Shown here: positions 10,586 to 31,614 of the stretch, piece after piece
How positions within the stretch are numbered: the first letter of the stretch is position 1
How the letters are laid out: the number at the start of each line of letters is the position of its first letter
Translations under genes and position numbers: made by a program
Notes under the pieces: model-generated
Seen by the model: the letters and a program-made list of their open reading frames with translations, nothing else
What the model was told of the DNA's origin: nothing
Database searches by the model: none
Source: Calditrichota bacterium
Lineage (GTDB): Bacteria > Calditrichota > Calditrichia > Calditrichales > J004
Assembly (NCBI GenBank): GCA_024277115.1
Contig: JAJRVW010000109.1
Coordinates: forward strand, 1-38,233
Direction: 5' to 3'
DNA length: 38,233 nucleotides

Positions 10586-10921
10586 ATGAGTACAAATCTT
10601 ATCGATTATCAGGAAGCCTTGGACAGGCTTGGAGGGGATGAAGAATTTTTAACAGAATTGTTGGAAGAACTAATTCTTCAGATTGATCAAAATTTTAAAG
10701 ACATACAAAAAGCAATTAACGAAAAAAATTTTGGGGAGTTACGTTCTCTCTCTCATAGCCTAAAAGGGGCCTCGGCAAATTTGAACGTTACACGATTAGC
10801 CGGCCATTTTTTACACCTTGAGGACCTTGGGTCTTCAAATTCAGTTGATGGCGCCGAAGAATTACTTGAAGCTGTTGGCAATGATAGAAAAGAGCTGGAA
10901 ATTTTTTTAAATCAAAATTAA
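10586..10921 (+). CDS. HPt (histidine phosphotransfer) domain protein
   Basis: This 111-residue single-domain protein probably relays phosphate between a hybrid kinase and a response regulator. The phosphoacceptor His57 lies in LRSLSHSLKGASANL, the standard HPt helix, followed by HFLHLEDLGSS. It has a ribosome binding site (AAAGGA) and a short spacer. It does not sit beside a hybrid kinase. The nearest receiver-containing gene is the receiver-kinase at 12779, about 1.9 kb away, and a link between them is only a guess. Its stop codon directly abuts the stop codon of the convergent comF gene with no base between them. Confidence 0.88.
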   Translation: MSTNLIDYQEALDRLGGDEEFLTELLEELILQIDQNFKDIQKAINEKNFGELRSLSHSLKGASANLNVTRLAGHFLHLEDLGSSNSVDGAEELLEAVGNDRKELEIFLNQN

Positions 10922-11623
10922 TCAAGAACCGTCAATCTCCAATTTAGATTGAAGGATATTTACAGGAGTGGCCATTGCAACAATGTCCACTCTTTTGCAT
11001 TTAGCTGCTTTTAACACCCGCGCGCATTCGTTGATTGTTGCGCCGGTTGTAATCACATCATCAATCAGGAGAATAGTTTTATTCTCGATGTTTTCCACAA
11101 CCTTAAATACATCCCTCATGTTTTCTTTTCTTTGAGCTCTGTTAAGCTTGGTTTGAGATTGCGTATATTTATCGCGTAAAAGGATTGATTTACCAAAAGT
11201 TAAACCGGATAATTTACAGAGAAAATAAGCAATTACTTCACTTTGATTAAATCCTCTTTCCCGTTGTTTTGTTTTATGCAGGGGAACAAATGCAATAATG
11301 TCATAATCCATTTTTAGTTTTTTCTTAATCGTCGCAGCAAAGTAGGTTGCAATAACCTGGTGCCCATCGTACTTGAACAAGTGCATCAGGTTCTGAAATA
11401 GTTCTGAAAATTCGAACATAATATAAATTTTATTAAAGTCGCGCCGGGCGAGTCTGTTTATAAAAGCGTTAGTTTGCTCGGGAGAGATTTTGGGGAGGCT
11501 GTTATAGCATTTTTCACAGATTATTAGTCTGCCATCCTGAAGGGATTGGTCACACGAAATACAGATTGCGGGAAGAAGAAGATTTAGAAAATCAGTTCCA
11601 ATTGTTTTAAGTATTTTAATCAT
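10922..11623 (-). CDS. ComF family phosphoribosyltransferase-like protein
   Basis: This 233-residue protein has the two parts expected of ComF. An N-terminal four-cysteine zinc ribbon (CISC, then CEKC, about residues 18-39) is followed by a phosphoribosyltransferase domain with the PRPP-binding loop LLIDDVITTGAT near residue 190. ComF proteins are needed for DNA uptake in naturally competent bacteria, apparently for moving single-stranded DNA across the inner membrane; in others the role is unclear. The call is to family level. No other competence gene is in the window. No strong ribosome binding site is visible before the ATG. Confidence 0.88.
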   Translation of the reverse strand: MIKILKTIGTDFLNLLLPAICISCDQSLQDGRLIICEKCYNSLPKISPEQTNAFINRLARRDFNKIYIMFEFSELFQNLMHLFKYDGHQVIATYFAATIKKKLKMDYDIIAFVPLHKTKQRERGFNQSEVIAYFLCKLSGLTFGKSILLRDKYTQSQTKLNRAQRKENMRDVFKVVENIENKTILLIDDVITTGATINECARVLKAAKCKRVDIVAMATPVNILQSKLEIDGS

Positions 11624-11963
11624 AGAAATAGATTTAACAGAAGAACGATCAATTATTAATCAATATAGTGCATAATACAAAAAATTATTAAAGTAAATTG
11701 AGAAAAAAATGCTCATTCATGGGTTTACACCTGTTGAGATTCCGAACAGTCCAGTGATGATAATAAGTACACTTTAGAATTTATTTAATTTATTTTTATA
11801 GTCGTTTTAGGTAAAAAATATATAAAAAAAAGCCATATAAATATATAAAAAACAATAACTTATAGATAGTTCTTGATTGTTTTGTAGAAAAATAACAGAA
11901 TTATGGCATAGTAGATGCATAAAAGCCAATCAAATTATTTCATACCAATATTAAGGGGGCAAA
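11624..11963. other. AT-rich divergent intergenic region (340 bp)
   Basis: This spacer separates comF (-) from the sigma factor gene (+). It is very AT-rich from about 11780 to 11900, with A/T runs such as TATATAAAAAAAAG that could bend or take up upstream activator elements. It holds the sigma-54-like promoter listed separately and an AAGGGGG ribosome binding site at 11953-11959. I see no RNA gene or open frame here. Confidence 0.55.
11904..11920 (+). promoter_or_regulatory. Candidate sigma-54 (-24/-12) promoter of the sigma factor gene
   Basis: The sequence TGGCATAGTAGATGCAT has GG at 11905-11906 and GC at 11917-11918, exactly 10 bases apart as in sigma-54 promoters (TGGCAC-N5-TTGCW). It matches TGGCA of the -24 element and TGCA of the -12 element. 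Transcription would begin near 11930, giving a leader of about 34 bases before the ATG at 11964. No enhancer-binding protein or rpoN gene is in the window, so this rests on the motif alone. Confidence 0.45.
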
Positions 11964-12719
11964 ATGCAGCAAGCCGTTGATACCATGTGGCACGAATACA
12001 AACAATATAATAGTAATGCATTCCGTCAGCAACTCATTCTCCGATATAGTGGTTTGGTAAAGTATGTTGTGAGGAAGATGATTAAAAACTTTCCGCAAGC
12101 TATCGAAGAAGGTGATTTGCATCAGATTGGAATTTTAGGTTTATGTGAAGCGATTGAACGCTTTGACCCGGCTTATGGGATTAAATTTGAAACGTATGCA
12201 ATTCCCCGTATCAAAGGCTCTATTATTGATGAGTTAAGAAAACTTGATTGGGTGCCACGTTCTCTCCGGGCCAAGCTCAACAATATCAGAGAAAAAGCTG
12301 TTGAGATGGATCAAAAATTTTCGGGTAATTATACCGAGGCTGAAATGGCCAATGGATTAGGCATCGAGGTTTCTGACCTGCATAACTGGAAAAAAGATGT
12401 AAACGCCGTAAATGTTTATTCTTTGGACAAGCCGATTGATGATTCAAACAAGCAGAATTTATATGATGTTATTGAAGATTTTGATTATGTCAGCGCTAAT
12501 GACAAAATTGAGGATGACGAAATGAAAAGAATCTTACTAAAAGCTATAAAAAAACTTCCCGAAAAAACCCGCCTTGCCATTACATTATATTATTATGAAA
12601 AACTAACATTTAAAGAAATTGGCAAAATATTAAGTGTGTCAGAATCGCGCATTTCCCAAATTCATTCAGAAACGATGTCCAGGCTAAGAAAAGAAATTAC
12701 AAAAATGACTTATGCCTAA
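11964..12719 (+). CDS. fliA: FliA-type RNA polymerase sigma-28 factor
   Basis: This 251-residue sigma factor belongs to the sigma-28 (FliA/WhiG) branch. Region 2 spans about 25-95 (IEEGDLHQIGILGLCEAIERFDPAYG, then FETYAIPRIKGSIIDELRKLDWVPRS). Region 3 spans about 100-170, and region 4 about 190-245 (TFKEIGKILSVSESRISQIHSE). The DELRxxDWVPRS and ESRxSQxHSxxxxRLR motifs are those of FliA rather than of SigB or RpoD. The ribosome binding site AAGGGGG lies 4 bases upstream of the ATG. It is followed by the receiver-kinase gene and a FlgM-like gene, but no flagellar structural gene is in the window. It could drive motility genes elsewhere or have been recruited to another regulon. Confidence 0.88.
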   Translation: MQQAVDTMWHEYKQYNSNAFRQQLILRYSGLVKYVVRKMIKNFPQAIEEGDLHQIGILGLCEAIERFDPAYGIKFETYAIPRIKGSIIDELRKLDWVPRSLRAKLNNIREKAVEMDQKFSGNYTEAEMANGLGIEVSDLHNWKKDVNAVNVYSLDKPIDDSNKQNLYDVIEDFDYVSANDKIEDDEMKRILLKAIKKLPEKTRLAITLYYYEKLTFKEIGKILSVSESRISQIHSETMSRLRKEITKMTYA

Positions 12720-12778
12720 AATATAGTTTCACCGTTCACTCTTAACTTTATCATAGAAAATTATTCCAGGGAAAATGT

Positions 12779-13912
12779 ATGTGCGCTGAATCAGCTCAGC
12801 CTAAGATTCTTATTGTTGAAGATAAACAAGATAATATCGACTTAATCTCATATTTTTTAAAGCCGCAGAACTACGAACTTATTGTTGCTATGGATGGCGA
12901 AACTGCAATTGAAAAAGTTGCCAGTAATCCCCCTGATATTATTTTATTGGATATTATGCTTCCAAAAATGAGTGGGTTTGAAGTTTGTGAACGTATTAAA
13001 AAGAACCCCGAGACCCGCTTTATCCCTGTAATTATGATAACCGCGCTTAAAGAGTTAAAGGATAAAATTCATAGCCTCGAAGTTGGAGCGGATGATTTTA
13101 TCACAAAACCGTTTGAAAATGTTGAGTTACTTACCCGCGTTAAATCCCTTTTAAGAATTAAAAAATATCACGATGAGTTGGAACGAAAAAATAAAGAACT
13201 GTTACGTGTTGACCAGTTTAAAGACGACTTGGCACATTTAATCGTGCATGATATTAAGAATCCTATTTTTATCATTCAGGGTAACTTACAAATGATGGGC
13301 ATGGGGCTATCTGACTCGGCGACAAATATCTTAAAAAAGTATATTGACCGAATTGACCGGAGTACAAAAAACCTGCTAAGTATGGTTATGAACCTTATTG
13401 ATATATCAAAAATTGAATCCGGTAAGATGAAGCTCAATAAAGAGCTGATCAGGGTAAATGATGTTATAAAAAAATGTGTGGACAAGGTGCGTGATTATCC
13501 GGAAAACAATACAAAAAAAGTAATATTAGAACTTTCTCAAGATGTACCACTGACGTACATAGACCACTCTGTTTTTGAAAGGGTAATGGATAACCTTATT
13601 ACTTTTGCCGTATCAAATATTAACTCTGAAGGGGAAGTAAACATCAATACATCCTTTAGTAATAATGTTGTCAATTGTGAAATTATTGATGACGGAATTC
13701 AAATCCCACCTAAATATCAGCAATCCGTATTTGAAAAGTACAGCCAGATAGAAATAAAGAATGAAGGCTATCGCCTGATGAGAGGATTAGGATTTACATT
13801 TTCTAAAATGGCGGTTGAGGCACATAAAGGCCAGTTATATTTGGATAATTCTGATTGTACCGGAAATAAGTTTGTGTTAAACATTCCAAAAGAAAAACCC
13901 GCATTAAATTAA
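12779..13912 (+). CDS. Receiver-histidine kinase hybrid with a degenerate ATP-binding domain
   Basis: The 377-residue protein has a receiver domain (about 8-122) with acid pocket E14-D15, phosphoacceptor D58 and K110, all canonical. A coiled linker (123-150) leads to a HisKA dimerisation region with H157 (VHDIKNP), then a HATPase domain (about 222-370). That last domain departs from consensus. In the N-box (N272-L-I-T-F276-A) the second Asn, which binds Mg-ATP, is Phe. In the G1 box (D304-D-G-I-Q308-I) the second Gly is Gln. The F box and G2 (GLGFTFSK) remain. It may be a weak or inactive kinase acting mainly as a phosphorylation-controlled binding protein. It lies 59 bases after the sigma factor gene, probably in one transcript. 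Confidence 0.85.
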   Translation: MCAESAQPKILIVEDKQDNIDLISYFLKPQNYELIVAMDGETAIEKVASNPPDIILLDIMLPKMSGFEVCERIKKNPETRFIPVIMITALKELKDKIHSLEVGADDFITKPFENVELLTRVKSLLRIKKYHDELERKNKELLRVDQFKDDLAHLIVHDIKNPIFIIQGNLQMMGMGLSDSATNILKKYIDRIDRSTKNLLSMVMNLIDISKIESGKMKLNKELIRVNDVIKKCVDKVRDYPENNTKKVILELSQDVPLTYIDHSVFERVMDNLITFAVSNINSEGEVNINTSFSNNVVNCEIIDDGIQIPPKYQQSVFEKYSQIEIKNEGYRLMRGLGFTFSKMAVEAHKGQLYLDNSDCTGNKFVLNIPKEKPALN

Positions 13913-13969
13913 TCTCCCGATATTAAGTTTTTTCTCTTGAATAATACTAATTTGTTTCAACGCACAAAT

Positions 13970-13996
13970 TAAAGTTTTCTTTGCCTTCTCCGACTT
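13970..13996 (+). promoter_or_regulatory. Candidate sigma-28 promoter of the FlgM-like gene
   Basis: TAAAGTTT at 13970-13977 is a perfect match to the sigma-28 -35 element. After exactly 11 bases comes TCCGACTT at 13989-13996, which keeps the CCGA core of the -10 consensus GCCGATAA. Expected initiation near 14003 gives a leader of about 60 bases to the ATG at 14062. Dependence on the FliA-type factor encoded 2 kb upstream would make the anti-sigma gene part of that factor's regulon, as for flgM in enteric bacteria. Confidence 0.55.
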
Positions 13997-14061
13997 TAGT
14001 GTGTATAAACAAAATCATAATACTGTTAAAGGGTATGGAGAAAAAAAAGAAAGAGGGGGGG

Positions 14062-14208
14062 ATGACCAATACAACTCAGGTCAGTACGATCGAAAAGCAA
14101 AAAATTGATCTAATAAAATTGCGTATTAAAAATAAGTTTTATGATCGAGATGAAGTCTACAATCATGTAATTAATGATTTGATTAATAAGGAACTGAAGA
14201 TTAAATAA
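14062..14208 (+). CDS. FlgM-like anti-sigma-28 factor, 48 residues
   Basis: The start is placed at ATG 14062 because a G-rich ribosome binding site (AGAGGGGGG, 14052-14060) directly precedes it. Earlier in-frame starts (ATG 14035, TTG/GTG upstream) lack one and would read that site as protein. The 48-residue product has the pattern of the sigma-binding C-terminal half of FlgM: an Ile/Lys-rich helix (IEKQKIDLIKLRIKNKFY), a short turn (DRDEV), and a second amphipathic helix (VINDLINKEL). FlgM is normally near 90-100 residues with a disordered N-terminal half that is missing here. Position behind a FliA-type sigma gene and a sigma-28 promoter supports the call, made on pattern and context rather than strong sequence identity. 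Confidence 0.55.
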   Translation: MTNTTQVSTIEKQKIDLIKLRIKNKFYDRDEVYNHVINDLINKELKIK

Positions 14209-31240: not shown

Positions 31241-31414
31241 ATGAAGAAGTTAATCTTACTTCTTTTTGTTTTTGGTTTGTTAGCCTGTGGAGAAAAAAAG
31301 CAAGAAACTAAGGCTGTTGAAGAGACTGTTAAGCAGGAAACAGTTACTTCTATAGTTGATTCTACAGTTGCTGCAGACTCTACATCTAAAGTAGTAGAAG
31401 AGGTTGCCGAGTAA
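31241..31414 (+). CDS. Small lipoprotein of unknown function
   Basis: The start is ATG 31241, preceded by GGAGG at 31230-31234; earlier in-frame starts would add a non-signal stretch. The 57-residue precursor has a basic N-terminus, a hydrophobic core and the lipobox LLAC with Cys16. The mature part of about 42 residues is rich in Glu, Lys, Val, Thr and Ser and has no Cys beyond the lipidated one. A consensus-like promoter, a strong ribosome binding site and a terminator make it a monocistronic, probably well-expressed gene. A Lpp-like structural role is possible, but there is no clear heptad repeat. Confidence 0.75.
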   Translation: MKKLILLLFVFGLLACGEKKQETKAVEETVKQETVTSIVDSTVAADSTSKVVEEVAE

Positions 31415-31466: not shown

Positions 31467-31614
31467 GACAGCTTCTCACAAAACTATTTTCGTTTTATCA
31501 CCACAATTTCCCGCTTATTAAAATTTTTATAACATCTGCGTTTGCCCCTTTTATTTCCTTAAGAATGTGTTAATATGAAATAACCATCTCTATATTTAAG
31601 TGGAAGAAAGCGGA

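Follow-up and report, generated by a model that had tools for sequence, protein, structure and literature searches.

In Salmonella and Escherichia coli, FliA, a sigma factor of the FliA/WhiG family, is paired with the anti-sigma factor FlgM, the anti-sigma gene having a sigma-28 promoter in front of it, and the N-terminal half of Salmonella FlgM allows export of the protein through the flagellum. The usual flagellar hierarchy leads from sigma-54 to sigma-28 and FlgM, and a sigma-54 input to the flagellar sigma cascade occurs in many polar-flagellate bacteria. Here we analyse a cassette of the same general design from a Calditrichota draft genome (G000; 4.97 Mb, 95.6% complete), located on a contig of 38,233 nt (GenBank JAJRVW010000109.1, contig C51 in our numbering), which in its whole length is referred to as the window. 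The cassette comprises the following elements.

11904..11918, forward strand: sigma-54 (-24/-12) promoter TGGCATAGTAGATGC, called from sequence, driving the sigma / receiver-pseudokinase pair
11964..12719, forward strand: sigma factor of the FliA/WhiG family, Calditrichota "type A" (sigma-A), assigned by TIGR02479 and the sigma tree
12779..13912, forward strand: receiver-histidine pseudokinase (REC-DHp-CA), with Pfam Response_reg, HisKA and HATPase_c
13970..13993, forward strand: sigma-28 promoter TAAAGTTTTCTTTGCCTTCTCCGA of the small gene, called from sequence (autogenous loop)
14035..14208, forward strand: short FlgM-type anti-sigma candidate, 57 amino acids (aa), by family alignment, Pfam FlgM in orthologs and hhalign

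We read this cassette as a sigma-28-type module orphaned from an ancestral flagellar system (type A, defined below) and kept for a non-flagellar regulon, and assign this reading a probability of about 0.6.

Several described systems share parts of this design. In non-flagellated Legionella oakridgensis FliA and FlgM are kept, and FlgM is seemingly degraded (PMC5655016, a review); in Pseudomonas aeruginosa FliA is set free from FlgM through HsbA and a receiver protein that is fed by an Hpt (PMC6482189); and in the WhiG-RsiG pair of Streptomyces and Rubrobacter a sigma factor of the flagellar clade is re-used for other functions (PMC8325347). For Caldithrix abyssi, all flagellar genes and an occasional tumbling motility have been reported (PMC5317091).

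The cassette resembles the Salmonella/E. coli pair in the family of its sigma factor, the putative FlgM-type C-terminal segment and the sigma-28 promoter before the candidate anti-sigma gene, and it shares the sigma-54 input with many polar-flagellate bacteria. Unlike that pair, it lies away from flagellar genes and occurs in genomes without detectable FlhA, its FlgM is short and has the receiver-pseudokinase as a constant partner, and flagella of the same genome are served by another FliA/FlgM pair. With L. oakridgensis it shares a sigma-28 factor and FlgM retained without a flagellar regulon and, presumably, a sigma-28-dependent FlgM whose release is independent of export (PMC5655016); however, that case concerns one species, whereas the cassette is phylum-wide and syntenic, has its own sigma-54 promoter and a pseudokinase, and can be traced by orthology to a second flagellar system since lost. 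Similarly to WhiG-RsiG, it combines a re-used sigma factor of the flagellar clade, a candidate anti-sigma factor and the flagellar promoter consensus.

Conservation and ancestry of the cassette

The trio of genes (sigma factor, receiver-pseudokinase, short FlgM-like protein) is kept across three families, f1, f2 and f3, the small gene being present in 5/6, 12/15 and 3/3 genomes, respectively. Such conservation in relatives had been set beforehand as one of two tests able to refute an earlier sequence-only reading of the window, which proposed a re-used flagellar-type checkpoint, and the reading withstands this one. Both promoters of the cassette are conserved as well: TGGCAY-N6-TGC precedes the sigma start by 51-74 nt at each of the 17 orthologous loci tested, where dinucleotide shuffles predict 0.013, and TAAAG-N15-CCGA precedes the small open reading frame by 29-86 nt at each of 15 loci, against an expectation of 0.015. 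The two promoters that had been claimed from the window alone are called here by conservation, and rpoN is present in the same genome, at contig C88. The spacing of the sigma-28 pattern is N12 after TAAAGNNT; the N11 version was wrong, and its four hits were discarded.

The sigma factor passes the NCBIfam FliA_WhiG model TIGR02479 (243.6 bits; cut-off, 189.6), as the sequence-only reading had expected, and matches the Pfam sigma-factor regions r2, r4 and r3, the last slightly below the cut-off. In a tree of 53 sequences the sigma factors form two clades, type A (support 100/99) and type B (100/100), although the deep joins are unsure due to long outgroup branches. Type A unites the sigma factors encoded by the cassettes of f1-f3 with the one belonging to the flhA-flhF-flhG operon (in f4, G033 and G035) and with further sigmas from f5/f6; type B comprises the flagellar FliA of f1-f3, G032, G034 and G036. 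The FlhA tree yields two flagellar systems matching the sigma sets (99/97 and 100/99). The type-A flagellar operon of f4 includes the receiver-pseudokinase, situated behind sigma-A, HDOD, GAF-kinase and other genes; a sigma-54 promoter directly before sigma-A was searched for in f4-f6, and none was found. In f1-f3 the type-A flagellum was not detected, the flagella there being of type B.

Thus, given the sigma and FlhA trees and the content of the f4 operon, sigma-A and the pseudokinase of the cassette descend from the type-A flagellar operon, and by these sequence comparisons both are orthologs of type-A operon genes in other families. Since the sigma factor is kin to type A and the pseudokinase occurs in the type-A operon, the cassette is best read as what remains of a lost ancestral flagellar system.

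The cassette is not restricted to genomes with flagellar genes. It is INDEPENDENCE from flagella in five genomes, where it is present and both FlhA and the type-B sigma factor, FliA-B, are undetected (G014, 96% complete; G015, 94%; G022, 92%; G021, 80%; G012, 73%). As FlhA and FliA-B share one operon, they are not independent markers. Two further genomes without FlhA, G039 (a single contig) and G031 (100% complete), retain sigma-A and the receiver-pseudokinase and carry a FlgM-like gene elsewhere in the genome. The cassette is also carried by G001, assembled as a single contig of 4,978,541 bases.

A flagellar checkpoint outliving its flagellum throughout a phylum would be a clear natural case of such re-use, with intermediate stages visible: still part of a flagellar operon, next to a second flagellum, and with no flagellum detected. 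If the reading holds, the flagellum would be one client of a rewirable sigma-28/FlgM logic, and this would help to address a known puzzle, the occurrence of FliA and FlgM in bacteria that have no flagella.

The receiver-pseudokinase as the candidate switch

Among 20 orthologs of the receiver-kinase (f1-f4, f6) the phosphoacceptor candidates Asp58 and His157 (H-box) are invariant, as are Asp15 and Thr88 of the receiver; position 14 is acidic, and Lys110 is retained in 19/20. At the same time, the catalytic N-box Asn is replaced in all 20 (Phe, n = 16; Tyr, n = 4), and the second Gly of the G1 box (DxGxG) is missing in all of them. Therefore the ATPase domain had been correctly described as degenerate, and the best name for the protein is receiver-pseudokinase, the kinase activity having probably been lost. 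In the G031 receiver, which is outside the set of 20, the acidic pair is lost.

In the predicted structure the ATPase part has a predicted local distance difference test score (pLDDT) of about 90, and the receiver and helical parts score lower. With this model, partly of low confidence, as a query, the best Foldseek matches are Leptospira LvrB (PDB 8vc9, E 5.1e-16) and ordinary histidine kinase cores, DivL included. LvrB, like the cassette protein, has REC followed by histidine-kinase-like domains, the comparison covering the fold only.

The receiver-pseudokinase stays near sigma-A across f1-f6, inside and outside flagellar operons, and this lasting proximity suggests a direct functional tie. 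As the catalytic N-box Asn is lost and the receiver Asp and H-box His are intact, the pseudokinase is the leading candidate for the switch. It thus constitutes a defined candidate for control of FlgM without export, and the earlier suggestion that it replaces secretion of FlgM fits the pseudokinase, the short FlgM and their constant partnership.

We propose the following course of events. An activator together with RpoN at the sigma-54 promoter would switch on sigma-A and the receiver-pseudokinase simultaneously; sigma-A would then transcribe the short FlgM-like gene and a few others, candidates being an HU/IHF-like gene and genes of signalling proteins; and the FlgM-like protein, as we infer, would bind sigma-A, closing a negative loop. 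Release would be independent of export, as some carriers appear to have no flagellum, and where there is none release cannot depend on it. Finally, phosphorylation of the receiver by Hpt or another kinase would cause the dimerisation/ATPase module to bind FlgM or sigma-A differently. In its strongest form, the pseudokinase would be a direct, phosphorylation-dependent and secretion-free release factor of sigma-28/FlgM, born in a flagellar operon and later stand-alone; this we put forward tentatively, as possible rather than probable. To our knowledge, no precedent joins a pseudokinase with a standalone sigma/FlgM cassette.

A parallel to this step is the HptB-HsbR-HsbA-FlgM pathway of P. aeruginosa, where an Hpt-fed receiver also controls FlgM without secretion (PMC6482189). 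However, HsbR is a receiver-PP2C-GHKL kinase acting via the antagonist HsbA, whereas the cassette encodes a REC-DHp-CA protein whose ATPase is degenerate, and nothing resembling HsbA was seen there.

Re-use of the sigma/FlgM pair could also be real with a different release, namely regulated proteolysis of FlgM, the pseudokinase acting elsewhere. A protein of 48-57 aa could suit a protease, and proteolysis has been suggested for FlgM of L. oakridgensis (PMC5655016), but it would leave unaccounted for the presence of the receiver-pseudokinase near sigma-A throughout f1-f6, and we hold this variant to be unlikely, if worth keeping in mind.

Flagellar systems of the same genomes

The window itself contains no flagellar genes near the cassette, as had been stated; for the genome as a whole the statement does not hold. 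A long flagellar cluster is located on contig C153; it includes flhA and a second FliA, which shares 28% identity with the sigma factor of the window. Two flagellin genes and one FlgM-like gene are found on contig C67. The genes flhB, flhF, flhG, fliS, fliD and flaG and those of the rod, hook and motor on these contigs were named by reading of the sequence and not by profile. Since C153 and C67 provide the flagella with a FliA and a FlgM-like gene of their own, the cassette amounts to another pair, uncoupled from the flagellar one.

The flagellin promoters follow the division into types A and B. In f1/f2 the type-B pattern TTAAR-N15-MCGAC precedes 6/7 flagellins and TAAAG-N15-CCGA none of the seven; vice versa, in f4 TAAAG-N15-CCGA (type A) precedes 2/3 flagellins, and the type-B pattern none. 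TAAAG-N15-CCGA, which also precedes the small gene in 15/15 loci, is the promoter type predicted for sigma-A, and the promoter types, at the sequence level, track the sigma types with no crossover.

These observations bear on the possibility that the cassette is still flagellar, with sigma-A and its FlgM controlling the late genes of the type-B system in trans. Flagellar genes do occur in most cassette-bearing genomes, and the order sigma-54, sigma-28, FlgM is that of the flagellar hierarchy; but the type-B system owns a FliA and a FlgM-like gene, its flagellins (7/7) lack the promoter type of the cassette, and the cassette is kept where FlhA and FliA-B are both undetected. We consider such a role improbable. 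The joint proposal of the sequence-only reading holds in part: that a checkpoint of flagellar type has been re-used finds good support in the conserved trio, the genomes with neither FlhA nor FliA-B detected, the type-A orthology of sigma-A and the pseudokinase, and a promoter type distinct from that of the flagellins in the same genomes.

Two observations concern FlhA itself. The flhA gene of the window's genome (G000:C153:40572-42530, L006) has two in-frame TAA stops, and that of the congener G020 is open; the stops may reflect either decay or an assembly error. On contigs G029:C392 and G030:C109, FHIPEP (FlhA) is matched twice, side by side, through its C-terminal half (E about 1e-28 to 1e-30); the open frames concerned reach 1817 aa and do not represent an ordinary FlhA.

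The small FlgM-like protein

The small protein starts either at ATG 14035 (57 aa) or at ATG 14062 (48 aa), the latter being preceded by a G-rich ribosome-binding site; a TTG at 13981 was rejected, as it lies inside the sigma-28 promoter, which leaves the two ATG codons. Twelve orthologs have in common an invariant core, K-xx-L-xxx-RI-x-N-xx-Y. The Pfam FlgM family (PF04316) matches 4/12 of them (best E 2.6e-4), and a profile-profile comparison (hhalign) of the small-protein family with the flagellar FlgMs of the phylum gives a probability of 97.3% and E 1.7e-11; one of those flagellar FlgMs exceeds the Pfam cut-off (26.7 bits vs 25). The claim of a minimal FlgM-like protein agrees with these family-level matches, and the protein can be regarded as a candidate FlgM-type anti-sigma factor. 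In the alignment the cassette proteins have a length of 50-71 aa, compared to 95-115 aa for flagellar FlgMs from this phylum; what they lack is the greater part of the N-terminal half, which in Salmonella FlgM permits export.

If the likeness to FlgM were coincidental and the small frame encoded no anti-sigma factor, the sigma factor would be controlled by transcription and the receiver-kinase only. The window copy has no Pfam FlgM match, and PDB searches with the small protein and with Calditrichota FlgM gave no meaningful matches; nevertheless, the family-level matches above and the sigma-28 promoter before the small gene in 15/15 loci, as is often the case for flgM, make coincidence very improbable.

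Candidate regulon

Outside the cassette, the best conserved target is a gene of HU/IHF type that neighbours a RuvX/YqgF-like gene, its HU family assignment being confirmed by Pfam. Of the 20 f1-f3 genomes whose upstream DNA was usable, 13 have a sigma-28 site (at most one mismatch) 152-197 nt upstream of it, mostly at 165-176, and a further one has the site at -251; 0.5 genomes would be expected by chance over all 25 tested. In the f3 loci L018, L019 and L020, an HU gene directly follows the FlgM-like gene. Together with the f1/f2 target, this is a repeated tie between the sigma factor and a nucleoid protein.

Other genes are candidates only: those of a REC-HD protein, hemerythrin and the cyclic di-AMP cyclase CdaA in the species pair G009/G010, of a MASE3-PAS kinase in the pair G000/G020, and a PilZ gene in G014, a genome without FlhA. 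At most sites of the species pairs the spacer has diverged and the boxes are kept. A large regulon drawn from strict consensus hits was rejected, as hits outside conserved positions are near the control numbers. In the window a second exact TAAAG-N15-CCGA is found at 31387-31410, about 213 nt before an open reading frame at 31600; it may be due to chance.

Several of our results weigh against an orphaned module with a regulon of its own. Strict sigma-28 sites are few, and in G015, G017, G018 and G022 the sole hit is the promoter of the small gene itself. Reversed-pattern controls yield similar counts in several genomes, hence the majority of isolated hits, away from conserved positions, could have arisen by chance. 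For a promoter, the HU/IHF-like site is unusually distant from the start codon, and f3 lacks it. The window's own small protein is missed by Pfam FlgM. Finally, the absence of FlhA rests on draft genomes except G039, and the flagellin search covered the window's own genome only.

A second-messenger switch of the WhiG-RsiG kind, an anti-sigma factor and a cyclic dinucleotide holding sigma-A, might be suggested by WhiG being the closest solved structure to the sigma factor (195.7 bits), by the diguanylate cyclase and phosphodiesterase genes in Rubrobacter WhiG regulons (PMC8325347) and by the candidate sites before HD-domain, CdaA and PilZ genes, but none of 18 proteins (12 short ones and 6 FlgMs) contains the RsiG motif E-x3-S-x2-R-x3-Q-x3-D, and an RsiG-type anti-sigma factor was rejected, making such a switch most improbable.

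Neighbouring genes and a second cluster

Upstream of the cassette there are two conserved neighbours.

10586..10921, forward strand: Hpt phosphotransfer protein (Pfam Hpt, E 3.5e-10)
10922..11623, reverse strand: comF homolog, divergent (Pribosyltran domain, synteny)

Relatives repeat the order Hpt, comF, sigma, REC/HK (the receiver-pseudokinase), small gene, and the distance between the sigma and receiver-pseudokinase genes in the window is 59 bp. The Hpt gene is close to the cassette in ten related loci, and its product is a possible phosphate donor to the receiver; comF presumably plays no role in the switch. The downstream neighbour in the window is a TonB-dependent receptor, often found at this position; with mostly 24-30% identity, and missing from some loci, it was rejected as a part of the cassette.

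In f2/f3 loci a conserved divergent gene of about 430 aa, not found in the window, is situated between comF and the sigma gene (L012, 8303-9610; L013, 8307-9611; L014, 8355-9656; L084, 4757-6061). Its product has a signal-peptide-like start and no Pfam matches.

Another cluster was observed in f5/f6, with the order FliW, a stand-alone sigma region-4-like protein (77-88 aa, weak Pfam match), FlgM-like protein, HU (L087, 7436-8869; L088, 8090-9135; L091, 6553-8458; L092, 7963-9729; L086, 8562-10137). Some of its carriers lack FlhA, and in three loci a sigma-54 promoter is found 47-49 nt before fliW. The region-4 fragment beside FlgM could be a decoy, and in this cluster flagellar regulators seem to have been re-used a second time.

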